35,259 bases of DNA from Muribaculaceae bacterium (GTDB lineage Bacteria; Bacteroidota; Bacteroidia; Bacteroidales; Muribaculaceae). Below are positions 18,269 through 32,017 of the stretch, in pieces. The stretch is from assembly GCA_016281825.1 (NCBI GenBank), contig JAEEJI010000062.1, forward strand, positions 1-35,259, in the 5' to 3' direction. The stretch's first letter is position 1; each line of letters begins with the position of its first letter. The position numbers and the translations under genes were made by a program. The notes beneath the pieces are model-generated. The model searched no databases. It was given only the letters and a program-made list of their open reading frames with translations, and was not told the origin of the DNA.

Positions 18269-18469
18269 TCAGTGAACCATGGTCTTTTGTCCGTCTTGGA
18301 TGACGATGCCTTGGTAATCTTCGCTGACTGGTTGGCCCAAGACGTTGTAGCGTGTGTCGCTTCGCGGTTTTTCGGGCGGCGTGATGCTGTAAATGCCGCT
18401 CAACGAATTGTTAACCACTTCAGTAGCAGCAAGCCGGAAACCGATATAGTTAAATCGGATATTGGGCAA
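18269..18469 (-). pseudogene. 3' remnant of a secreted SUMF1/FGE-like protein
   Basis: The readable 66 codons start with RFNYIGFRLA, the characteristic end of formylglycine-generating-enzyme-like (SUMF1) domains. A linker then leads to a tail (RYNVLGQPVSEDYQGIVIQDG) that resembles the C-terminal end of secreted Bacteroidales proteins. Directly upstream in frame is a TAA, and no ATG or domain body precedes it; only about 30 bp separate it from the TfoX-like gene. So it is a decayed fragment rather than a functional small gene. The domain identification is from recognisable end motifs only. Confidence 0.6.
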
Positions 18470-18496
18470 TTACCGCCTCAAAAACATATTCTTTCA

Positions 18497-18823
18497 TCAT
18501 TTGGTTCGTTTCTTTTTGGGTTTGGGTTCGGGCAGTGCTCGACAGGTCTCTCTGGCCAGCATCGACATATACTCGTGGTCATCGACATCGGCGATATAGA
18601 AGTAATCTTTTGCTCCCGGGTATGGCGGGCGCAAATCCACGGTTTTAAGCAAAGCTCTGACCTGCTCGGTAGGCTTGATGAAGAAACCGTCATCACAAAC
18701 TAGTCCGAATACTTTGCCATCGCAATAGATGCAATAGTCCCCCATCATCTTGCGAGTCGTTATCTGACCTGCTGCACTGCACTGGTCAGCGATATATTGT
18801 ACGAAATCAGCGTTGCTTGCCAT
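18497..18823 (-). CDS. TfoX N-terminal-domain protein
   Basis: 108 residues from the ATG at 18821-18823. The TfoX-N signature is clear: ITTRKMMGDYCIYCDGKVFG near residues 20-40, then GFFIKPT and PYPGAKDYFYI, and a basic tail (PKPKKKRTK). It lacks the C-terminal TfoX domain, as is usual for Bacteroidetes homologues. TfoX/Sxy proteins co-activate competence genes in Gammaproteobacteria, but the role of this short form is unknown. A promoter TACTTTTG with TTTG 20 nt upstream precedes it and excludes the longer frame from 18979. Monocistronic. Confidence 0.9.
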   Translation of the reverse strand: MASNADFVQYIADQCSAAGQITTRKMMGDYCIYCDGKVFGLVCDDGFFIKPTEQVRALLKTVDLRPPYPGAKDYFYIADVDDHEYMSMLARETCRALPEPKPKKKRTK

Positions 18824-18851
18824 AAAAGATGTGATAGTTAGTTTTTGGCCA

Positions 18852-18859
18852 CAAAAGTA
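18852..18859 (-). promoter_or_regulatory. Promoter element of the TfoX-N gene
   Basis: Minus-strand TACTTTTG with a TTTG exactly 20 nt upstream; 28 nt to the ATG. Confidence 0.75.
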
Positions 18860-19032
18860 GTCTTTTTTTCGCGTAACAGCAAAAGACCAGTTAAACAGGG
18901 CAGCTCTCGGCTGTAAAATCAAGCTTGAGCGGCAGAAATGGGGTGTTGGTCGATTTGTTGGAAAGCATGTTAAACGCAAGAGATGGATGCGAGTCTAATT
19001 CGTAACTTGAAACCTATAACTAGTAACTCTAT

Positions 19033-19743
19033 ATGAAACGTACTGTTACCTTATTATTATTGTGTGTTGTGACACTAGGAGTCTCAGCACAATATTATCG
19101 TGGCCACTCGCCTCGTACGCGCGTGGTAGTTCCCGCACCGCGTGCACCTCGTGCTGAAGTTCGTGGTTTTAATCCGTTTGACTGGCACCGCACTTATTTC
19201 GGTTTGCGTGTGGGCATGAACGTGAGCAATGTGCGCAGCGAGGCCGTTGCGCTGAATGGCACGGGGATGAAGACCGGTCTGAACATCGGTGCTGTCCTGG
19301 GGACCCAGTTGAGCCTCACTACTCCCCTATTCCTGGAGAGCGGCCTGTTTTACTCGCAAAAGGGCGGCAAGAGTGACAATGTTTTGACGCTTAATGGTCC
19401 CAGCAAGTTCACCTACGATTTGAACTACCTGGAGTTGCCGTTGTTGCTCAAGTACCGACACTTCACCTACAGCGGTTTGTCGATTGAGCCATACGCTGGC
19501 GGGTATTTGGCGGTCGGTGTAGGCGGCAACATCAAGGACTATGGTGATCGCAAGGCATTCAGCAGCTACGACGATGGCTACTTCAAGCGGTTTGACGGTG
19601 GCCTGAAGTTGGGTCTTGGACTCGGCTATGGCATTGGCTATGCCGACATCAGCTATGACGTAGGTCTAGCCAATGTAGGCCAAGACTCATTTGATGACAC
19701 GCACACAGGCACGTTCACCGTGAATGTTGGAGTGAACTTCTAG
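19033..19743 (+). CDS. Outer-membrane beta-barrel protein (porin-like, OmpW/PF13568 type)
   Basis: 236 residues. Signal peptide MKRTVTLLLLCVVTLGVSAQ. A short Arg/Pro-rich linker leads to alternating strands typical of small outer-membrane barrels: FGLRVGMNVSNV, GLNIGAVLGTQLSL, LFLESGLFYSQKGG, LNYLELPLLLKY and GLSIEPYAGGYLAVGVGG. It ends with the aromatic-terminated strand GTFTVNVGVNF expected for BAM recognition. The LNYLELPLLLKY strand is characteristic of the PF13568 group. Likely an outer-membrane structural or small-solute protein; no specific substrate. A terminator follows. Confidence 0.9.
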   Translation: MKRTVTLLLLCVVTLGVSAQYYRGHSPRTRVVVPAPRAPRAEVRGFNPFDWHRTYFGLRVGMNVSNVRSEAVALNGTGMKTGLNIGAVLGTQLSLTTPLFLESGLFYSQKGGKSDNVLTLNGPSKFTYDLNYLELPLLLKYRHFTYSGLSIEPYAGGYLAVGVGGNIKDYGDRKAFSSYDDGYFKRFDGGLKLGLGLGYGIGYADISYDVGLANVGQDSFDDTHTGTFTVNVGVNF

Positions 19744-19764
19744 AGCACGGGTAGCCTAAACACT

Positions 19765-19793
19765 CCCCTCCCCTTATTAAAAAAGGAGAGGGG
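19765..19793 (+). terminator. Terminator after the beta-barrel gene
   Basis: CCCCTCCCCTT (19765-19775) against AAGGAGAGGGG (19783-19793) with one mismatch, followed by a weak T-rich stretch. It lies between convergent genes. Confidence 0.6.
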
Positions 19794-19809
19794 ATTATTT
19801 GTTGGGAGG

Positions 19810-20616
19810 TTAAGCGTGCCAATCGAAATTGTTGTCAGCGATGAGCTTCATCATCACAGCGAACATCTGCTGACCGTTGACAGCGAGGTTGCCGTTGAGT
19901 TGGCGGATGTAGTCAAACGACGCATCACGGTCGAGCACTTGGCCATTGTCGAGATGCACCTGGCAGTTGTGGAACAGGATGAGGTTCTTCATCGTGAAAT
20001 AAGCACCGGCTCCCTTGTAGGCATCTAACCATGCAAAGCTCTTCTGCCGATTAGGGATAGCGACCCACTGCATGGGTTTGAGTGCAGCGACCAACGCGTT
20101 AGGATCATTGGCTGTGGCGAGGTTCTGGAGCACCTTGTTTCCGATGTCAAAGCCTTGGCTGACAAGGTCTCTTGCCATCGCTTCGACGACTGCACGATTG
20201 AACCAGCGGTTACGCTCGGCGAACTGTTCGGGGTCATCGCGACTGAGCAGCGCCTGCGCGCGGAGTTCGTCAGAGAGCATACGCCAGGTATAAGTGCAAA
20301 AACGCCTGGCGATAACATCATCATAGTTCTGCTCGCTGATGGGCTTGTCGCTCTTGCGGTGGAGCAACTTGAACATCTGCGCCATGACATGGCGACGCCA
20401 AAGGCGTGATTGCCACACGTAGCCGCCCTCATTGATTTGTTGGACGACTGGGTCGTTGTTCACTTGAGGCGCAGGTGCCTGGTTGGGCTGCTGCGGTTGC
20501 TGGGTCTTGTTACCCATCGCCTCGTTAATCACATCTTTGAGGACCTCACTTGCCGAGGTCTTTTCGCCTCCTAAGAGTTTCTTGAGGAAGCCGGTTACAA
20601 GATTTTCTAGTGCCAT
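19810..20616 (-). CDS. Unrecognised 268-residue protein downstream of the RT locus
   Basis: No known family recognised. The N-terminus (1-35) is an amphipathic helix-rich stretch. A Gln/Pro-rich linker (about 37-55) separates it from a mostly helical body rich in Trp and Arg (YVWQSRLWRRHVMAQMF, then WRMLSDELRAQALLSRDDPE). The distinct motif DAYKGAGAYFTMKNLILFHN lies near residue 205. No signal peptide or membrane segment, so it is likely cytosolic. It is the last of three minus-strand genes (RT, 169-residue protein, this one), but an 84-bp 7-bp array separates it from its neighbour, so operon membership is uncertain. Start ATG at 20614-20616. Confidence 0.75.
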   Translation of the reverse strand: MALENLVTGFLKKLLGGEKTSASEVLKDVINEAMGNKTQQPQQPNQAPAPQVNNDPVVQQINEGGYVWQSRLWRRHVMAQMFKLLHRKSDKPISEQNYDDVIARRFCTYTWRMLSDELRAQALLSRDDPEQFAERNRWFNRAVVEAMARDLVSQGFDIGNKVLQNLATANDPNALVAALKPMQWVAIPNRQKSFAWLDAYKGAGAYFTMKNLILFHNCQVHLDNGQVLDRDASFDYIRQLNGNLAVNGQQMFAVMMKLIADNNFDWHA

Positions 20617-20629
20617 AGTTCTTTATAAA

Positions 20630-20713
20630 TTAAGAATTAAGAATTAAGAATTAAGAATTGAAAATTGAGAATGGAGAATTGAGAATTGAGAATTGAGAAT
20701 TGAGAATTATGAA
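20630..20713. repeat. 7-bp tandem array, twelve units of ttaagaa/ttgagaa
   Basis: Longest array in the window: four ttaagaa units followed by ttgaaaa, ttgagaa, tggagaa, four ttgagaa and ttatgaa. It lies just upstream of the start of the 268-residue protein. Confidence 0.92.
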
Positions 20714-20772
20714 TGATGATTTATCGCTTGGTGACAATTGTGTTGTGAATGTGCCTGGGGGTGCAGCCCTGC

Positions 20773-21282
20773 CTAAGGCTCCAGCCACTGAGTGAGGATG
20801 ACAAGGCGGGGATGGTTGGGGCTTTGCCAAAACCACTTGCCTTGCATCTGCGGGCTGTGCCTTGTCAACGAGCCGTTGAGGATGAGTGCGAGCGTGATGA
20901 CCTCGAGTCGTGTGCGCGCCACGGGACGCTCCATGCCAGTAGCGAGTTCTCGGTCGGTCAACTCGTCATCTGAGCGCGCGTGGAACCATCTGCTCTCGTC
21001 TCGTCCGTCATGCATGGGCACACTGCGCTCATAGTCCACGTAAGCCTGCTCAATCATAGCCAGAGCGGTGTCCTCATCGGTTCGCTCGACGCCCAATTCG
21101 CCCGCCAAGCACCCATTGTCGATGAGTGCACCTCCATTGATGGTAAGGTCATGCTTGACCAGGTCAACGATGACCCTCTCACCTTGCTCGGCTGCCGCAA
21201 GTGCAAGTTGGCAAGCCCCCCTCCCTTCCCCCTGAATGGGGGGAAGCATTGACGTTTTATATTTCAGGTTATCATCGTGCAT
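20773..21282 (-). CDS. Unrecognised 169-residue protein downstream of the reverse transcriptase
   Basis: The body (from about residue 28) is an acidic, soluble protein with segments such as DEDTALAMIEQAYVDYERSV and PVARTRLEVITLALILNGSL, ending KWFWQSPNHPRLVILTQWLE. No family recognised and no membrane segment. The first 25 codons are suspect: the ATG lies in a short aatgcac repeat, and codons 12-22 (MLPPIQGEGRG) are encoded by a C/G-run repeat found again at 35063-35093. No better start exists in frame. No promoter is seen; expression would need read-through from the RT gene, whose possible terminator (21291-21316) lies in between. Confidence 0.6.
   Translation of the reverse strand: MHDDNLKYKTSMLPPIQGEGRGACQLALAAAEQGERVIVDLVKHDLTINGGALIDNGCLAGELGVERTDEDTALAMIEQAYVDYERSVPMHDGRDESRWFHARSDDELTDRELATGMERPVARTRLEVITLALILNGSLTRHSPQMQGKWFWQSPNHPRLVILTQWLEP
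21216..21246. repeat. C/G-run palindromic repeat, copy 1
   Basis: Runs of C, TGAA, then a run of G. It matches, in the opposite orientation, the element at 35063-35093. It lies inside the 5' end of the 169-residue protein's frame. Confidence 0.75.
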
Positions 21283-21290
21283 TGTGCATT

Positions 21291-21316
21291 AAAAAAGGGA
21301 TGCCAAGAGTGTGGCA
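21291..21316 (-). terminator. Possible terminator of the RT transcript
   Basis: On the minus strand TGCCA-cactct-TGGCA (21316-21301), TCCC, then TTTTTT (21296-21291). Short stem but good T run. Confidence 0.5.
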
Positions 21317-21399
21317 CATTTCTTTAGAGCTTTGATTCTTGGTGCTTTGCACCAAGATGAACAACCTCTCCACATCCCATGAGACCGTGTGCGCGGTCA
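21317..21399 (-). ncRNA. Hairpin-rich 3' tail of the RT gene, candidate non-coding RNA
   Basis: Between the RT stop and the possible terminator lie a 5-pair stem GACCG/CGGTC (21383-21398) and a perfect hairpin CTTGGTGC-ttt-GCACCAAG (21338-21356, nine pairs with the flanking T-A). No coding potential. Non-coding RNAs next to stand-alone RTs are often their templates; here that is inference. Confidence 0.35.
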
Positions 21400-22665
21400 T
21401 TACATTTGTCTCACAATCGTCTCGTATGCAGCCCGTGAGGTCTTCAGCGCATTCTGCATGCATCCGATTGAATAATATCCGTCCAGTCGCTGCAGGGTTC
21501 TGTATCTGTTTCTTGCCACATGGCTGCCTCGCCCTCGGACAACGCAGCCATGCTTGCCCTGTCGGTCAAAGCCTAGTCCGCCAATGCGGCGCTTGCCTGT
21601 ATGAGCGGCGCGGATGGCATCCATCACAAAGGCGTTGAGCGTGTCAATGTCCTGCTTGGCATTGACGACCGGCAGGACTTGTGTCGCCCAACTGTATCCG
21701 TCGCGTCCGCGATAGAGGCAGCGGTTGACGCGTGCCGTCGCCTGTGCCATGCTTGTGGTGCGAGCGGTGAGGCGTTCGATGTACTGCTGGAATTTCTTGA
21801 TGCGGCGGGGCGACAAGGAAATAAGGTTGCCACGGATTGAGAAACCCAAGAACGCGAACCACTGGTCACTGCGCAACACCTCATGTTTGTCAGGATTGAT
21901 ACGCAGCCCCATATGGGCGAGTTCTTCAGCAAGCACCCCCTTGGCACGTTGATGGTCAGGACCGACGAAGAGCATGTCGTCGCTATAGCGCACATAGTAG
22001 CCATTCATCTGCGACAGGCAGTCGTCGATGTGATAGAGCAACACGTCGGCTAGCCAGGAAGCCACTGCGCAGCCTTGCCTGAGCGACATGAACTTGTGAG
22101 CCATATTGCCCTGGTTGTCAAGATATCGGTCATCATGGTAATAGTTGCGTAGCAACTGGATGAGCGCCGACTTGCCATATTGTTGTTCAACCGAGTCAAA
22201 GGCCTGGTCGATGTATTGCAGCGGCACCGAGTCAAAGTATTTCGACAGGTCGCTTTTCCAACCCACGACACGATTGTCGCATTGAACAACATGTTTTGAG
22301 ACCTCGCACACCACCTTACCACATCCGATTCCAGAGACATAGGACTTGCAAGCCGGATGAACTCGGTGGGGCGTGAGTTCAAAGAGCAGTTCATTGGCAA
22401 TGGCGAGGATGACGCGGTCGGCTGGCTCGTTGACATAGACTGTGCGCCATTCGCCGCGGGTGTCCTTGGGAATCAATGCGGTGTGTGGAGGCGATATCTC
22501 ATAAGAGCCTTCTTTGATAGCACGATACAATGCTATGCGGGTGTCGGGCGCAGCCAACAGACGCAACAAGGCGCGGTTGATGCCTTTTCCGACACCGCCT
22601 TCCAAGGCCTTCTCCCATCGGTGATGCTCAAAGAACCGTCGCAATATTTCGTCACATTCGCTCAT
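21400..22665 (-). CDS. Reverse transcriptase of an unusual, stand-alone type
   Basis: 421 residues from the ATG at 22663-22665 (MSECDEILRR), chosen because the promoter lies just upstream; the frame runs on to 22776. RT motifs in order: fingers with ALIPKDTRGEWRTVYVNEP (64-81), motif A WKSDLSKYFDSVP (D139), motif B LRQGCAVASWLADVLL (Q197-G198), motif C YVRYSDDMLF (Y227-S-D229-D230), motif D LRINPDK and GFSI. A 120-residue thumb/X-like C-terminal region follows, ending DGYYSIGCMQNALKTSRAAY. All catalytic aspartates are present. No endonuclease or group II intron domain V/VI is visible, and neither the retron VTG box nor the DGR-type motif B is seen. Divergent from an EEP-family gene. Confidence 0.93.
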   Translation of the reverse strand: MSECDEILRRFFEHHRWEKALEGGVGKGINRALLRLLAAPDTRIALYRAIKEGSYEISPPHTALIPKDTRGEWRTVYVNEPADRVILAIANELLFELTPHRVHPACKSYVSGIGCGKVVCEVSKHVVQCDNRVVGWKSDLSKYFDSVPLQYIDQAFDSVEQQYGKSALIQLLRNYYHDDRYLDNQGNMAHKFMSLRQGCAVASWLADVLLYHIDDCLSQMNGYYVRYSDDMLFVGPDHQRAKGVLAEELAHMGLRINPDKHEVLRSDQWFAFLGFSIRGNLISLSPRRIKKFQQYIERLTARTTSMAQATARVNRCLYRGRDGYSWATQVLPVVNAKQDIDTLNAFVMDAIRAAHTGKRRIGGLGFDRQGKHGCVVRGRGSHVARNRYRTLQRLDGYYSIGCMQNALKTSRAAYETIVRQM

Positions 22666-22675
22666 TATACCTTGA

Positions 22676-22683
22676 CAAAGATA
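22676..22683 (-). promoter_or_regulatory. Promoter of the RT gene
   Basis: Minus-strand TATCTTTG with TTTG exactly 20 nt upstream (22704-22707). Only 10 nt separate the element from the ATG, so the mRNA should be almost leaderless. Confidence 0.8.
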
Positions 22684-22708
22684 CACATTATTTTTGAAAT
22701 TACCAAAT

Positions 22709-22902
22709 ATTATCCCGAATCGGTCATTAGGTCGACGAAAAGTGTTTTTAAAGGTCTGTTGATGCCATAACAGCATTTCTTTTGGAATCTTGTTGCTGCT
22801 GTCGGCTCGCCATAGCCCGCTATGCCTTCACCGACAAGCCTTACAATCCGCTCAAAACAAATACTATTCTGACATCAACCCTAATGACCGAATCGGGATT
22901 AT
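22709..22902. repeat. 194-bp element bounded by 23-bp inverted repeats, upstream of the RT
   Basis: Arms 22709-22731 and 22880-22902 match as inverted repeats at 21 of 23 positions. Inside are TGTCGG/CCGACA enclosing CATAGC-cc-GCTATG, and CTGTT/AACAG. CAAAT occurs at the left edge and 2 bp outside the right arm, a possible target duplication. It may be a MITE-like insertion or a structured RNA element of the RT locus. The RT -33 box abuts its left edge. Confidence 0.75.
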
Positions 22903-22942
22903 TTCAAATCGGGGCAGATTTGGTGGTGAGGGCAAAAAGTAG

Positions 22943-22950
22943 TATCTTTG
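22943..22950 (+). promoter_or_regulatory. Promoter of the EEP-family gene
   Basis: TATCTTTG with TTTG at 22919-22922, a 20-nt spacer; 24 nt to the ATG. Confidence 0.8.
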
Positions 22951-22974
22951 TTGCGTAAACTAAAGATTTGTTTT

Positions 22975-23760
22975 ATGAGAGTACGTCAACTGATTTTGCT
23001 GCTGACTATGCTGGTTGGGATGATGGCTGTTGCGAACGAGCATAACGACACCATCCGTGTGATGACGCTGAACCTGCATGCCGGGCATGATGCCAGTTTG
23101 GAGCAGATCGGTGCGTTTATCAAGCAGTATCAGCCCGACTTTGTTGCCTTGCAGGAAGTGGACCACCTCACGCATCGTGCAAACTGCCGCCATCAGAACG
23201 ACCGAGACTTTATTACCGAGCTTGCCTACCACAGTGGCATGCAAGGCCTTTTTGGTCCAACCATCTCGTTTAGCGGCGGGCAGTACGGCATCGGCCTGCT
23301 TACACGCCATCCATTTGTCGAGGTGCATAACCACAAACTCCCGCATCCCACCACCAAGATGGAACAGCGGGGGCTGCTGGAAGGTACCTTCGTGTTGCCA
23401 GACGGCGATACCCTCATCGTGGCCTGCACCCATCTGGAAGCGTTCGACAGTCTCAGCCGGGTGGCGCAAGCACAATTCATTCAAGAACATTTTGCCGAAG
23501 CGCCCTACTCAGTTGTGCTTTCGGGCGACTTCAACGCTTCGCCGCTTGACCCCGTGATTCAAGGTCTTACCACACAATGGCAGGACTGCACTGATAGCGC
23601 CCCCACCTTTAGCGTCGAGAAGCCCAACGAGAAGATTGACTATATCTTCACCCGTCCACAGCACCAGTGGCAGACAGTGGAGTCGCAGGTCATCCCCGTT
23701 GCCCTGAGCGACCATTTCCCAGTTATTGCCACACTCATTGTTAACCATCCTGAACCATAA
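22975..23760 (+). CDS. Secreted endonuclease/exonuclease/phosphatase (EEP) family protein
   Basis: 261 residues. An N-terminal signal sequence (LILLLTMLVGMMAVA) indicates export. EEP-fold catalytic boxes appear in order: MTLNLHAGHD, ALQEVDH (metal-binding Glu), GLLTRHP, ACTHLEA, GDFNASP (Asp/Asn), IDYIFTRP and SDHFPVIATL (catalytic Asp-His). The family includes phosphodiesterases, sphingomyelinase-like enzymes and nucleases; the substrate cannot be read. The start at 22975 is preceded by the promoter; the longer frame begins with TTG inside the -7 box. The peptidase gene follows 9 bp later, so the two form an operon. Confidence 0.93.
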   Translation: MRVRQLILLLTMLVGMMAVANEHNDTIRVMTLNLHAGHDASLEQIGAFIKQYQPDFVALQEVDHLTHRANCRHQNDRDFITELAYHSGMQGLFGPTISFSGGQYGIGLLTRHPFVEVHNHKLPHPTTKMEQRGLLEGTFVLPDGDTLIVACTHLEAFDSLSRVAQAQFIQEHFAEAPYSVVLSGDFNASPLDPVIQGLTTQWQDCTDSAPTFSVEKPNEKIDYIFTRPQHQWQTVESQVIPVALSDHFPVIATLIVNHPEP

Positions 23761-23769
23761 CTATAGATC

Positions 23770-24957
23770 ATGAAAAGATTATTCATCGCATGTGCATTGC
23801 TTTGTGCCACAAGCATTCTGTTGGCTCAAACAACCGAGAGTCTCGTATTCACCACCGTTTTGTCTAACCCCATCACCCCCGTAAAGAACCAGAGTCGCAG
23901 CGGCACCTGTTGGGACTATGCCACCATCGGATTTGTCGAGGCAGAACTTTTGCGCACCACAGGGCGCGTGTATGACTTGAGCGAGATGTTTGTGGCAAAC
24001 AAGAACTATATGGACTGCGCCGAGTACCACGTGCGCATGCATGGCTGCAGCCGGTTTTCGGAAGGCGGCTCGGCTGACGACGTGTTTGCCGTGCTTGAAC
24101 GTCACGGCATCTGCCCTGAGACCGCGATGGCCCGTCCCGGACAGATGATTGGCGACACGCTGGCCAACTTCACCGAGTTTTTCAAGACCCTGACGCCGTA
24201 TGTCGAGGCGATTGCCAAGAGTGAGAGCACCAAACTCACCTCTCAGTGGCGCGTAGGACTGCAAGGTATCCTCGATGCTTATCTAGGTAGTTGTCCCGAG
24301 CGGTTCGCCTATGAGGGCAAGGAATACACCCCGAAGTCTTTCTACCAGAGCCTAGGCATCAACAAGAATGATTATGTGAGCATTACCAGTTTCACACACC
24401 ACCCGTTTTATGAGCAGTTTGTCATTGAGGCTCCTTACAAATGGCGTCCACGCCCCAGTTACAATGTCACGCTCGACGAACTGATGTCAACCATCGACCA
24501 TGCTTTGCGGCAGGGCTACACAGTGGCATGGGGTGGTGACGTGAGCGAGGATGGTTTTACTCGCACTGGCCTTGGCATCGCGTGCGACATAGCGCATGCC
24601 GATGACCTTACAGGCAGCGATGCCGCACGCTGGCTCAAGCTCAGCAAACAAGAGAAGGCCGAGTCGCTGAAGCGCCTGGGCGCAAAGACTCCCGAGCTCG
24701 TCGCAACGCAGGAATTGCGGCAAGAGCGATTTGACAACTGGCAGTCTACCTACGACCATGTGATGCTCATCTACGGTATTGCGAAAGACCAGAACGGACG
24801 GGAGTATTATATGGTAAAAAACTCGTGGGGCGACACGGGCGACTATCACGGCATCTGGTACATGACCAAGACCTACATGGCATTGAACACGACCTACATC
24901 TTTCTAAACAAGGACGCAGTACCCAACGCAGTGAGTAAAAAACTGAAACTGAAATAA
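23770..24957 (+). CDS. Secreted C1B-family cysteine peptidase (bleomycin hydrolase/PepC type)
   Basis: 395 residues with signal peptide MKRLFIACALLCATSILLAQ. Papain-fold catalytic triad: Cys47 in NQSRSGTCWDYA, His330 in TYDHVMLIYG, Asn351 in VKNSWG. The preceding Gln41 fits the oxyanion hole. The long insertions between Cys and His match the C1B aminopeptidase C/bleomycin hydrolase group. Cytosolic in Firmicutes, but Bacteroidales carry exported versions like this one, probably working on peptides in the periplasm. Second gene of an operon with the EEP protein. Confidence 0.94.
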   Translation: MKRLFIACALLCATSILLAQTTESLVFTTVLSNPITPVKNQSRSGTCWDYATIGFVEAELLRTTGRVYDLSEMFVANKNYMDCAEYHVRMHGCSRFSEGGSADDVFAVLERHGICPETAMARPGQMIGDTLANFTEFFKTLTPYVEAIAKSESTKLTSQWRVGLQGILDAYLGSCPERFAYEGKEYTPKSFYQSLGINKNDYVSITSFTHHPFYEQFVIEAPYKWRPRPSYNVTLDELMSTIDHALRQGYTVAWGGDVSEDGFTRTGLGIACDIAHADDLTGSDAARWLKLSKQEKAESLKRLGAKTPELVATQELRQERFDNWQSTYDHVMLIYGIAKDQNGREYYMVKNSWGDTGDYHGIWYMTKTYMALNTTYIFLNKDAVPNAVSKKLKLK

Positions 24958-25011
24958 GAAGCTCGTAACAAGAAACGGGGCTGAATTTTCTCAATTCTGA
25001 AATAAAAGTAG

Positions 25012-26678: not shown

Positions 26679-28319
26679 TCAGAATCCTATTCTGCGTTTC
26701 TCTTTCGTTTCGAGCCTCTCATTGTCACAATAAGACGAGATTTCCTCAACCACATTTGTCGACTCACCATGAAGAATCTTGCCTATTGTATAGTGCCTAG
26801 CAATGTTCTCAATCTGTCCGCCACTGAAATCGTATTTCGAAGCCAACGCGTGACATTGTTCCTTGTTCAGGCTCGGAATCATCTCGTGCCACATACTTAC
26901 CCGGGCTTCGATGGTAGGCTTCTCAAATTTAATCTTATAGAGGAAACGGCGCTCGAAAGCCTTATCCATGTTTTGGGCCAAGTTCGTTGTGGCGATGAGT
27001 ATTCCGTCGAGCGTTTCCATCTCTTGGAGGATGATGTTCTGAATAGAGTTCTCCATTTTATTAACTGCGCTTTTTGCGCCTTCCATACGCTCTCCAATGA
27101 TAGCATCAGCTTCGTTGAAAAGCAGGATTGGCGCAATTGTGCTATCTTTTACCTTAGCTCGATATGTGTCGAACAATTGTTTGATATTCTTTTCGCTCTC
27201 ACCAACCCAGCAACTCTTGATCTGAGAAATGTTCACTTGCATGATGTCACGGCCGGTCTGTCGTGCCAATTGCAATACAGTCTCGGTCTTTCCGGTTCCT
27301 GGAGCGCCATAAAGCAGACAAGTGAAAGCACAGCGGAAACCACTTTCTTTCATACGACTTCGAATTTGGAAATATTGTTCGTTTTCCAAGAGTTTACCAA
27401 GTTCTTCAATCTGGGCACTAATCTTCTCTCCATAGAAGAGCCTTTTGGGTGCAATCTCTTCTGACTTCACAACATCTCCGCATTTGACGTTTTTGTTTAA
27501 AGCAGCCAAATTGAGTTCGCTGAAGAGATCCCTCTTTGCCTTGTCGGTCATTCGGAATGACTCCCTGTCAACAAAGCCATCGGAGTTGATATATTCAATC
27601 ATTTTGTTTTCCATCAACACATGGTCTCCACGGTTAAGCTGAGATTTCACATGATTCCACAACCGTTTCTCATATAGGAAGTCGAGGTCATAAAACCTGA
27701 TGTTGTCGTCGGTATTGTTGACAAACAGGTGAGAAAAAAGAATCAGCAACATTTTGTCATCATCATCCAAACCATAGCTCAACACCTTCTGCACATATAG
27801 CAGTTGTTTGTTGCACTCAAACAAGTGTTGGATTTTTTCAACCATGTTTTCATAGGTTAACTCATTCTCGTTGCGCAACTCAAAGATATCTTCCAGTTCT
27901 CCGAACAATTCCAAGCAAGAAAGCCCTGTGCACTCTTTAGGTTCAAACTTTTCATTTTTTTTGAACGCTTCAAGAACCTCTATGGGAACACGGTATGAGA
28001 TTTGGTGGCTTCTTCGGCTACACCTGACGAGTTCTTTTTTCTCCAACTCATCAATATCTGCCATGTATTTAAGAATTCTTGTAGTCCTGCATTCCAGAAA
28101 TTTCCCCATATCGCGCATAGTGATGCTTGTATTGTCGCTGTTGTCGATGAACAAAGCCATCATGACAGCCTGTTCCCCAGTAAGCTCCATCTTATCAGCC
28201 ACATATTTAATATGTCTAGCCGCCTTGCGATAGAACTCTGGACTCAATCCAGTTCCTTTTGCTTGGTCTACAATCTGCTCTACTGCTGTGAGCAAATCCA
28301 TTTTCTGTTTTGTTGCCAT
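26679..28319 (-). CDS. AAA+ ATPase with N-terminal helical/winged-helix region
   Basis: 546 residues from the ATG at 28317-28319, just below a TACCTTTG promoter. Residues 1-320 are mostly helical, with a winged-helix-like stretch (FLECRTTRILKYMADIDELE). The AAA domain has Walker A YGAPGTGKTE (about 338-345), a Walker B variant PILLFNEADAI in which Asn402 replaces the usual Asp before Glu403, sensor-1 IATTN (443-446) and a double-Arg finger FERRF (457-458). The CDC48-like domain is C-terminal. Substrate unknown; stand-alone ATPases of this build occur in accessory regions. Lower GC than the core genes. Operon with the 103-residue protein. Confidence 0.9.
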   Translation of the reverse strand: MATKQKMDLLTAVEQIVDQAKGTGLSPEFYRKAARHIKYVADKMELTGEQAVMMALFIDNSDNTSITMRDMGKFLECRTTRILKYMADIDELEKKELVRCSRRSHQISYRVPIEVLEAFKKNEKFEPKECTGLSCLELFGELEDIFELRNENELTYENMVEKIQHLFECNKQLLYVQKVLSYGLDDDDKMLLILFSHLFVNNTDDNIRFYDLDFLYEKRLWNHVKSQLNRGDHVLMENKMIEYINSDGFVDRESFRMTDKAKRDLFSELNLAALNKNVKCGDVVKSEEIAPKRLFYGEKISAQIEELGKLLENEQYFQIRSRMKESGFRCAFTCLLYGAPGTGKTETVLQLARQTGRDIMQVNISQIKSCWVGESEKNIKQLFDTYRAKVKDSTIAPILLFNEADAIIGERMEGAKSAVNKMENSIQNIILQEMETLDGILIATTNLAQNMDKAFERRFLYKIKFEKPTIEARVSMWHEMIPSLNKEQCHALASKYDFSGGQIENIARHYTIGKILHGESTNVVEEISSYCDNERLETKEKRRIGF

Positions 28320-28358
28320 TTTCTTATGCCTTTTTATTACATGTGAATTTTCAAGGCA

Positions 28359-28366
28359 CAAAGGTA
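28359..28366 (-). promoter_or_regulatory. Promoter element of the AAA+ ATPase operon
   Basis: Minus-strand TACCTTTG, 39 nt before the ATG. It excludes the longer frame to 28361. Confidence 0.75.
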
Positions 28367-30787: not shown

Positions 30788-32017
30788 TCACTTCATATTG
30801 TCTATGCCATCCATTATTTCGGCATATTTTTCAATTAATCGATTCTTTCTGATCTTAGTTAGTTCATTATCAATTATTTCCACAATCCTATTTCCTTTAA
30901 CCATGTCAGTTAATGAATCGAATCCATCCCACCATTTTAAATTTCCAGGAAAATAATTGGATCCATACGGCCATTTCGGATTAACCCCATCAGACCAATC
31001 CTCAAATTGTTCCATTACCACCCTCTGGTTTTCTGGATAGCCCACAGCAACAATGCCATAATAAACTGAATTCCCTTCATTTTCTATTTGGAAATAACAC
31101 TTGTCATATCCAGGAAGAACGAAACGGATATTTTTATAATTGCGGCTATGAGTTCCTAGAACAACAAACTCTTTATCATATGACAAAGTCATACCATGAT
31201 TCTTTGCCAATTCCGTCAGATTGTTCTCAATAAAGCGCGTTCTAATTGTATTACCTACATCCTCTGACATTGATATTATTTCAAGAGTTGCGTCAATATT
31301 AGATTTGTTAATCAGCAACTCAACAATTGTTTGTTTGTTCATTTCACTCATAATACTCATTATTTGTTTAAGATTTGTAATGTATTGAGTTAATGTTTCT
31401 CTGACTCTTGGGAATAATGCGGCGATGCCGACGCAATGTTCAAGCCAGTTCAAGATGTCTTCTTTATAACAAATTCGATAATAATTTAGATCCTCATTTC
31501 CTGTAGAATCTTCACTAGCGTCTCTTTTTTCAGGAGTTAAATATAATAGAACATATTGTTCGGCTTTATATTTCTTCTTCGCATAATTGTCATATCTTAG
31601 TAACTGTTTGTGTTGATCCCCAGCATAAATCTTGTTTTCAATAATTATTGTTTGATTATTTTTATCTTGAATAAGCAAATCAATTCTTCCACCTTCAGAA
31701 TAATCTTCTGAAATTTCACCAATGGGATATTCAACATGAACTTTACAAGATCTCGTGTCAATCTCAAAAACAGGCTCAACTCTCTTGATGATTGATTCAA
31801 CAAAAGCGATTAGAAATTTATCACCCAAACCATGATTACCATCAGGATCTAACAATTCAGCCAAAAAAGCGGAATGCAATCGAACCTCATTAGTAGAGAG
31901 TCCGAGAACATCGAAGATATTAAAGATTTCGCCTCGTTTACGTTTCTCTTCTTGATGTATCTTTTCTTTTACAACAATCTTAGAGATCTGTTTTAGTAAT
32001 ATTTCTATATTTGTCAT
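30788..32017 (-). CDS. PD-(D/E)XK nuclease superfamily protein (PF14281-like)
   Basis: 409 residues, strongly AT-rich. Typical PDDEXK_4 sequence: LHSAFLAELLDPDGNHGLGD (48-67), then the catalytic core D113 in GGRIDLLIQD and E127-N-K129 in IIIENKIYAGDQHKQLLRY, with Q136. The N-terminal coil and the C-terminal half (about 230-409) carry no further motif. Proteins of this family are probable nucleases common in defence islands and prophages; no methylase is adjacent, so it is not an obvious restriction-modification system. The promoter is supplied by repeat R1, 80 nt upstream. Confidence 0.88.
   Translation of the reverse strand: MTNIEILLKQISKIVVKEKIHQEEKRKRGEIFNIFDVLGLSTNEVRLHSAFLAELLDPDGNHGLGDKFLIAFVESIIKRVEPVFEIDTRSCKVHVEYPIGEISEDYSEGGRIDLLIQDKNNQTIIIENKIYAGDQHKQLLRYDNYAKKKYKAEQYVLLYLTPEKRDASEDSTGNEDLNYYRICYKEDILNWLEHCVGIAALFPRVRETLTQYITNLKQIMSIMSEMNKQTIVELLINKSNIDATLEIISMSEDVGNTIRTRFIENNLTELAKNHGMTLSYDKEFVVLGTHSRNYKNIRFVLPGYDKCYFQIENEGNSVYYGIVAVGYPENQRVVMEQFEDWSDGVNPKWPYGSNYFPGNLKWWDGFDSLTDMVKGNRIVEIIDNELTKIRKNRLIEKYAEIMDGIDNMK

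Follow-up and report, generated by a model that had tools for sequence, protein, structure and literature searches.

The window analyzed here, a stretch of 35,259 nt from a Muribaculaceae bacterium (contig JAEEJI010000062.1, positions 1 to 35,259), carries on its minus strand the operon of a reverse transcriptase (RT) of the UG27 group, with two associated genes and a structured RNA unit in the gap behind the RT gene. The RT gene likely occupies positions 21400-22665(-). The longest open reading frame (ORF) extends to 22776 (21400-22776(-), 458 aa counted from the first ATG); the most likely translation start is the ATG at 22665, since homology to the PADLOC profile RT_UG27 begins only at residue 42 (residues 42-458). 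The RT gene is followed by homologues of RTas346 (20773-21282(-), PADLOC 2.5e-29, conserved part approximately residues 27-169) and RTas337 (19810-20616(-), PADLOC 7.6e-56), referred to below as as346 and as337. The original prediction had placed two unrecognised proteins behind the RT; both are present, but they match these families, and the predicted span, 20773-22902, omits the second of the two genes.

According to the profile scores, on whose comparison the class placement rests, the window RT belongs to UG27, a little-studied group known to PADLOC. RT_UG27 is the best profile (2.6e-187, 620.9 bits), followed by UG26, UG17, UG4 and Drt9 (119.4, 86.3, 81.9 and 72.3 bits, respectively), and the Drt2 profile yields 46.6 bits with a cut-off of 390. 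As PADLOC already has UG27 under DRT along with both neighbour families, this is not a new RT group. The suggestion of a defence RT of an unknown group was thus close with regard to DRT and mistaken with regard to the group, the defence role itself being presumptive. UG27 is not named in the RT literature searched, nor was a fitting description of array or multi-RNA RT systems found there. The exclusion of retrons, diversity-generating retroelements (DGRs) and group II introns stood. The retron_St85 profile scores 36.5 bits (cut-off 235) and the PADLOC retron model 35.1 bits, far below UG27; the group II intron profile TIGR04416 scores 81.9 bits (cut-off 300), and no group II intron RNA was matched in Rfam; no direct repeats of at least 40 nt, sought near the RT as template and variable repeats of a DGR, occur within 18400-25000. 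Among solved structures, the RT profile is closest to group II intron RTs (GsI-IIC RT, 4.6e-17), and it also reaches Drt2 (4.2e-9).

The RT has intact catalytic motifs, as predicted. The Pfam RVT_1 profile scores 61.6 bits on it; YxDD (YSDD in the window) is retained in all 92 distinct RT rows of the alignment, window included, with Ser in 88 and Cys in 4, and the motif A Asp in 91 of the 91 rows having a letter there. Motif B, QGCAVAS, is found in the window RT, and so is SIGCMQNALKTSRAAY, which had been given as the C-terminal end, but the protein instead ends with YETIVRQM. A Tyr near the C-terminus is present in 86 of 91 rows. No second RVT_1 gene was found in the genome assembly (approximately 83% complete). 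The gene's own promoter, also predicted, is supported by a putative site TTTG-N20-TATCTTTG (22676-22707(-)), which directly precedes the RT start, ending 10 nt ahead of the start codon. The window contains seven such sites, with 0.7 expected, of the form TTTG-N-TAnnTTTG, which we take to be the Bacteroidetes-type promoter consensus.

The gap between the RT and as346 genes is occupied by a single copy of a 121-nt unit (21282-21402(-)) that reaches from the RT stop codon, which it overlaps, to the start of as346 and is predicted to form a pseudoknotted RNA. Hairpin H1 (21384-21397(-)) has a 6-nt loop, in which the 5-mer GCACA (21388-21392) pairs with the pseudoknot strand UGUGC (21314-21318(-)), preceded by UAAAGAAA. 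The long-range stem P2 (21297-21378(-)) joins strands 21373-21378 and 21366-21368 with strands 21297-21302 and 21307-21309; a U6 run (21291-21296) directly follows it, and the variable 9-bp hairpin P3 (21338-21356(-)) lies inside. In an alignment of the window unit with five relatives (A6), the 25-pair structure, which we drew from these same rows, is 96% paired over the 6 sequences, and its covariation was reached in none of 500 shuffles. All seven counted pairs of P3 are changed on both sides, and P2 has double changes at pairs 27-109, 37-99 and 38-98, while the pseudoknot pairs are invariant within the window clade, where the unit is single or double.

A covariance model built from A6 (R1) matches the window unit with 134.4 bits, by construction, because A6 includes the window sequence. 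Over 101 relatives, R1 finds six units, every one in an RT-bearing genome; five are training sequences, and the sixth (G442), independent of the training, lies on a contig carrying as346 and as337. No stand-alone unit was found by the R1 scan, under stricter filters, in the other 95 relatives. Over 20 sources, R1 also matches units of the tandem arrays described below, in loci L044 (5e-8) and L088 (1e-5), so the single unit of the window is tied to the arrays independently of the descriptor used for them. The window gives only tRNA matches above the Rfam gathering score, and 10 other loci give none; in E-value mode, one array and region 20600-22960 give only sub-threshold matches. Judged from these alignments, the partner RNA is a conserved, covarying, pseudoknotted unit in the RT-as346 gap that is linked to the RT. 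The prediction of a dedicated RT system is borne out by the UG27 RT with its conserved associated genes and structured RNA; the proposed non-coding RNA template corresponds to a conserved RNA located downstream of the RT, and its templating role is putative. No description of this RNA was found in the sources searched, a set that did not extend to the Mestre UG/Abi survey and the Weinberg RNA-motif survey, which are said to be likely places for a description of a UG27 RNA.

To place the window in context, we collected 123 UG27 loci, window included, 90 of them remaining distinct when the RTs are compared over their last 200 residues. Genome contigs gave 51 loci, of which 11 (L073-L083, 21-37% identity) were dropped as other RTs; among viral contigs, relatives are present in 100 of 105 candidate stretches, the best 80 being retained. 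In collection scans, the lone RT query confirmed no relatives, and the alignment query did. Duplicates by RT or unit sequence were removed before counting. A survey of neighbours in homologous loci, which had been suggested as a check, supports the system: among 81 distinct loci, window included, with at least 2.5 kb downstream, as346 is present in 79 and as337 in 79, and both follow in order on the RT strand in 78. In 11 distinct relatives the RT and as346 are fused, which argues for joint action of the two proteins.

In most relatives the gap is much longer than in the window and holds a tandem array of units. Among 74 distinct RT-as346 gaps longer than 100 nt, 55 measure 700-1500 nt; 51 contain four to eight motif sites, 13 contain one, and six contain none by the pattern used. 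The arrays have up to approximately eight units with a period of mostly 150-190 nt. Each unit consists of hairpin H1 (a stem of 3-6 bp and a 6-nt loop whose end is RYRYR), a 3' motif AUC[AG]-N6-UANAGNNA followed by the complement of the H1 loop, stem P2 joining the strand behind H1 with the strand behind the pseudoknot, and a long hairpin enclosed by P2. The search pattern demanded the alternating R-Y loop and UANAG, hence the uniformity at these positions is partly built in; it did not require the loop-strand pairing itself. An exact 5-nt complement lies upstream of 282 of the 321 motif sites in the loci set, and 178 complements lie 35-46 nt behind the previous motif, compared to 24-29 in three shuffles of the 3' strands among sites. 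In this set, 209 of 270 units share the register of the H1 stem: two registers that extend the same stem score 172 and 68, and the other 13 score 1-25. The loops take 24 of 32 possible sequences. The signal for P2 is weaker, with a helix of at least 7 bp in 186 of 252 units and in 76 of 252 after swapping strands between units. One gap (L159:9237-9881) contains, by eye, very long near-perfect hairpins of approximately 30 bp, one window there having a z-score of -25 (12 shuffles only).

A descriptor of the unit matches 76 of the 88 loci scanned, giving 252 distinct units. Applied to 138 kb of RT-to-as337 sequence, it yields 224 units, compared to two in shuffles of that sequence preserving base counts only; elsewhere it finds 51 units in 1.08 Mb, 41 of them from the RT-as346 fusion loci. 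In the fusion clade, units occupy the as346-as337 interval and recur downstream of as337, so the position of the units relative to the genes is not fixed. No unit was listed for 14 of 81 distinct loci in the de-duplicated list; two of these (L041, L055) do have units, leaving 12, and nine of the 12 gaps are still partly strongly folded (best window z-score of -4.7 or lower, 12 shuffles each). Orthologous units from 14 sequences (A7) have 97.6% of cells paired in a structure that we drew from these rows, with 46 double-change cells compared to 14.4 in shuffles, a covariation reached in none of 500; RNAalifold recovers H1 and P2 in A7 unaided.

The enclosed hairpins are strongly folded (mean z-score -6.3, below -2 in 245 of 252), and BLAST between units of one array yielded no pairs with a common hairpin sequence. 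Hairpin types recur across species, mostly in the order c9-c0-c4-c7/c8-c16-c1, the exceptions being c1 in L048 and c12 in L086, which stand at other places. Since hairpins within an array are unlike and their order is mostly kept between species, the array is a largely fixed set of RNAs on one frame, rather than a recently copied repeat. As the arrays are seen only in relatives, this strangest feature of the RNA was invisible in the window. Matches of the hairpins to the flanks of the relatives, as expected of DGR-like or CRISPR-like targeting, numbered 107 compared to 79 in shuffles, and this reading was rejected; the sole strong match (L154) is an array copy located right after the RT gene on a cut contig.

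We assign the RNA to the RT-sense strand, since G-U mismatches outnumber A-C ones both in the pseudoknot (21 and 2, respectively, of 29 single mismatches, related sites being counted each time) and in the frame (41 and 17 in cluster representatives). In the hairpins the two kinds are equal (20 and 20 in cluster representatives; Fisher p=0.056 compared to the frame, p=0.27 with all units, 70:32 vs 47:31), a weak hint that the hairpins matter as DNA too. The single-stranded stretch AUC[AG]-N6-UANAG between the hairpin and the pseudoknot has conserved positions, UANAG being set by the pattern.

Carriers of the system include many phages. With a threshold of E ≤ 1e-60, carriers constitute 7 of 101 genomes of the genus, 13 of 397 of the family and 3 of 393 of the order, each count including the own genome and the samples overlapping. 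The isolate Bacteroides phage BS-TP1 carries a UG27 relative (L007:14995-16257) recorded as "tail protein"; the array behind this RT (eight motif sites) sits in a stretch without annotated genes. The array of a faecal phage scaffold (L008) is 99.5% identical to that of a genome of the same taxonomic order (L024), hence the array travels. Together with an identical unit layout in several Bacteroides and Phocaeicola contigs (L055, L056, L071), this makes recent transfer of the array likely. The type strain Bacteroides gallinarum DSM 18171 (L056/L061) is among the array carriers. The window copy represents a chromosomal setting of UG27; no phage structural gene was found by Pfam among 15 neighbouring proteins.

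Taken together, these data make it reasonably probable (approximately 0.6) that the UG27 operon of RT, as346 and as337 works as a ribonucleoprotein with the RNA from the RT-as346 gap. The downstream RNAs are probably templates or cofactors with a role in defence or in competition between phages; templating, priming and defence are what we infer. The RT and as346 would grip the constant frame of each unit (H1, the pseudoknot and P2), DNA synthesis would be primed from the conserved Tyr near the RT C-terminus, and the RT would make a short structured DNA from part of the unit, either the variable hairpin or the single-stranded stretch AUCA-N6-UAAAGNNA. The as337 protein would then sense this DNA or act on it, and the system might serve defence or the exclusion of other phages, on phages and bacteria alike. 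Copying of a part of the unit is suggested by the class 2 DRTs studied so far, which use cis-encoded non-coding RNA (ncRNA) as the template, according to the available portion of the source (PMC13174585); UG17/DRT10, DRT9 and DRT2, which are among the profile neighbours of the window RT, are described as using ncRNA templates in an excerpt of PMC12632851. The position of the template is suggested by the conserved single-stranded stretch, located where DRT2 and telomerase keep theirs, with a stem on its 5' side and a pseudoknot on its 3' side (PMC12039810, in extract), and Tyr priming by the C-terminal Tyr, as in DRT9, which primes from C-terminal tyrosines, and DRT10 (PMC12483538, PMC12632851, the portions available).

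Several observations weigh against this scheme. In 5 of 91 RT rows, Phe replaces the candidate priming Tyr. Two Oscillospiraceae contigs (L067, L068) with a UG27 RT of 43% identity have neither as346 and as337 nor clear units; in L067 a 211-aa ORF follows the RT. Whole units fold better antisense (174 vs 76 of 252), and unit interiors with G-U pairs barred still do so (204 vs 42); we ascribe the bias to loop and stacking terms because it persists with G-U barred, and it remains a contrary result. In A7, further pair types do not exceed shuffles (19 vs 21.4). No A-B-A' repeat of the telomerase/DRT10 type was detected in the units (3.03 vs 3.01, the former equalled or exceeded in 53 of 200 permutations), nor was a stop-free template with a DRT2-like endless reading frame (58 vs 52 of 252). 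Finally, a role in host defence is not obvious, since many carriers are phages.

Some of these results would be expected if the units were structural or sensing cofactors and the RT made untemplated or otherwise templated DNA, the hairpins being baits or scaffolds read by shape by as337 or the ribonucleoprotein, and several units widening the sensing or setting the stoichiometry. The absence of A-B-A' and stop-free template signs fits such a role, as do hairpins that are unrelated within an array (no links) yet strongly paired (245 of 252), and a unit order largely kept between species, like parts with fixed roles. We nevertheless consider it unlikely, given that the class 2 DRTs studied so far template from cis RNA (PMC13174585, as excerpted) and that the AUC[AG]-N6-UANAG stretch is placed like the templates of DRT2 and telomerase (PMC12039810, as excerpted). 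Alternatively, the units could act in cis within the mRNA rather than in trans, as attenuators, partial terminators or processing sites, and so tune how much as346 and as337 is made per RT. The window unit fills the RT-as346 gap, and P2 followed by the U6 run resembles a terminator, but up to approximately eight units go far beyond the need of an attenuator, the fusion clade has units also behind as337, and terminators do not usually have a long-range pseudoknot maintained by covariation, which makes this explanation very improbable.

Mobile elements frequently bear defence against competitors. This, together with the lack of phage structural genes around the window copy (15 neighbours tested by Pfam), speaks against the possibility that the system serves the phage itself, in genome maintenance, anti-defence or as decoy DNA against host factors, and not defence. 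The abundance of relatives in viral contigs (100 of the 105 candidate stretches), the copy in the isolate phage and the travelling, 99.5% identical array of L008 and L024 agree with it, and we regard it as rather doubtful overall.

A tentative and bolder extension, which we think improbable, is that UG27 is a multiplex system, in which one RT-as346 machine makes a different hairpin DNA from each tandem pseudoknotted RNA. The self-paired DNAs would make up a fixed panel, serving as decoys, sensors or toxins and in many cases carried by phages, and in the window clade the panel would have shrunk to one or two short units. Studied UG groups have yielded unexpected DNA products, namely homopolymers, telomere-like repeats and genes made from RNA.

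Compared to known systems, the locus agrees with the UG27 group of PADLOC in the RT and both neighbours, which match the group profiles, and in the gene order; it differs in the RNA unit and the tandem arrays, which have no Rfam match in the window or the loci tested. Retrons, as generally described, likewise combine a constant RNA frame and a long variable hairpin (msr plus msd), but the window RT is not a retron RT, and the UG27 RNA lies behind the RT and is present in multiple copies in relatives. A conserved structured ncRNA encoded in cis, as in class 2 DRTs, is found at UG27 loci. As in DRT2 (UG2), the RT lies beside a pseudoknotted ncRNA, and the DRT2 template has a stem before it and a pseudoknot behind (PMC12039810, in extract); in contrast to DRT2, the UG27 RNA is located downstream of the RT, comes in one to approximately eight units and has no sign of a stop-free template. 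DRT9 (UG28) and DRT10 (UG17) are nearer by profile score and are primed from a C-terminal Tyr or Ser, comparable to the conserved C-terminal Tyr of UG27, whereas they have a single ncRNA and, in DRT10, a SLATT protein (PMC12483538, PMC12632851, portions available); the UG27 units also lack the A-B-A' template repeat of DRT10. With telomerase RNA the units share the order of stem, single-stranded stretch and pseudoknot (PMC12039810, in extract), but have no repeat-alignment sequence, the relationship being by analogy alone.

Thus the RT group is known, and the RNA component is the novel part, as far as the sources searched show. The excerpts of DRT literature examined show nothing comparable to tandem units that carry dissimilar hairpins on a single constant pseudoknotted frame, and the arrangement appears to be a new one among RNA-copying systems. 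It lends itself to clear tests of unit binding, of the choice of the copied unit and of the need for several units, and the single-unit window clade offers the smallest version of the system.

The as346 model has a pLDDT (predicted local distance difference test score) of 90.6 and the all-helical as337 model 85.7. Comparison of these models with PDB structures gave no clear match, and the PDB sequence search gave weak matches only for both proteins (E-values 0.33 and 0.58). The as346 model matches one viral model, the uncharacterised phage protein A0A8S5PRP3 (E-value 2.3e-12). A number of relatives have at the as337 N-terminus a CPxCG stretch, perhaps a zinc knuckle, which is lacking in the window protein. 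The interval between as346 and as337 contains, by eye, a degenerate short tandem repeat of the GAGAATT type (20630-20710).

Structured non-coding sequence had been predicted on both sides of the RT gene. Downstream it is the conserved RNA; upstream, region 22665-22950(-) does fold strongly (-105.5 kcal/mol, z-score -8.6), but its strongly folding part is a dispersed mobile-type repeat outside the RT system. This repeat (22714-22897, approximately 185 bp) resembles a miniature inverted-repeat transposable element, with terminal inverted repeats of approximately 18 bp (CCCGATTCGGTCATTAGG), a 95% copy elsewhere in the genome (G000:C22:2235-2419) and two partial 75% copies on contigs C88 and C256. 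The upstream region was therefore rejected as the RT partner RNA; the promoter match lies between the repeat and the start codon.

Other genes of the window include one of the endonuclease/exonuclease/phosphatase family (22972-23760), divergent from the RT; in L021 and L022 a gene of this family is directly behind as337 on the same strand, a candidate insertion hot spot or partner gene. A protein of the PD-(D/E)XK_4 nuclease family (30788-32017(-)) and an AAA ATPase (26679-28361(-)) are possibly encoded by further defence genes.

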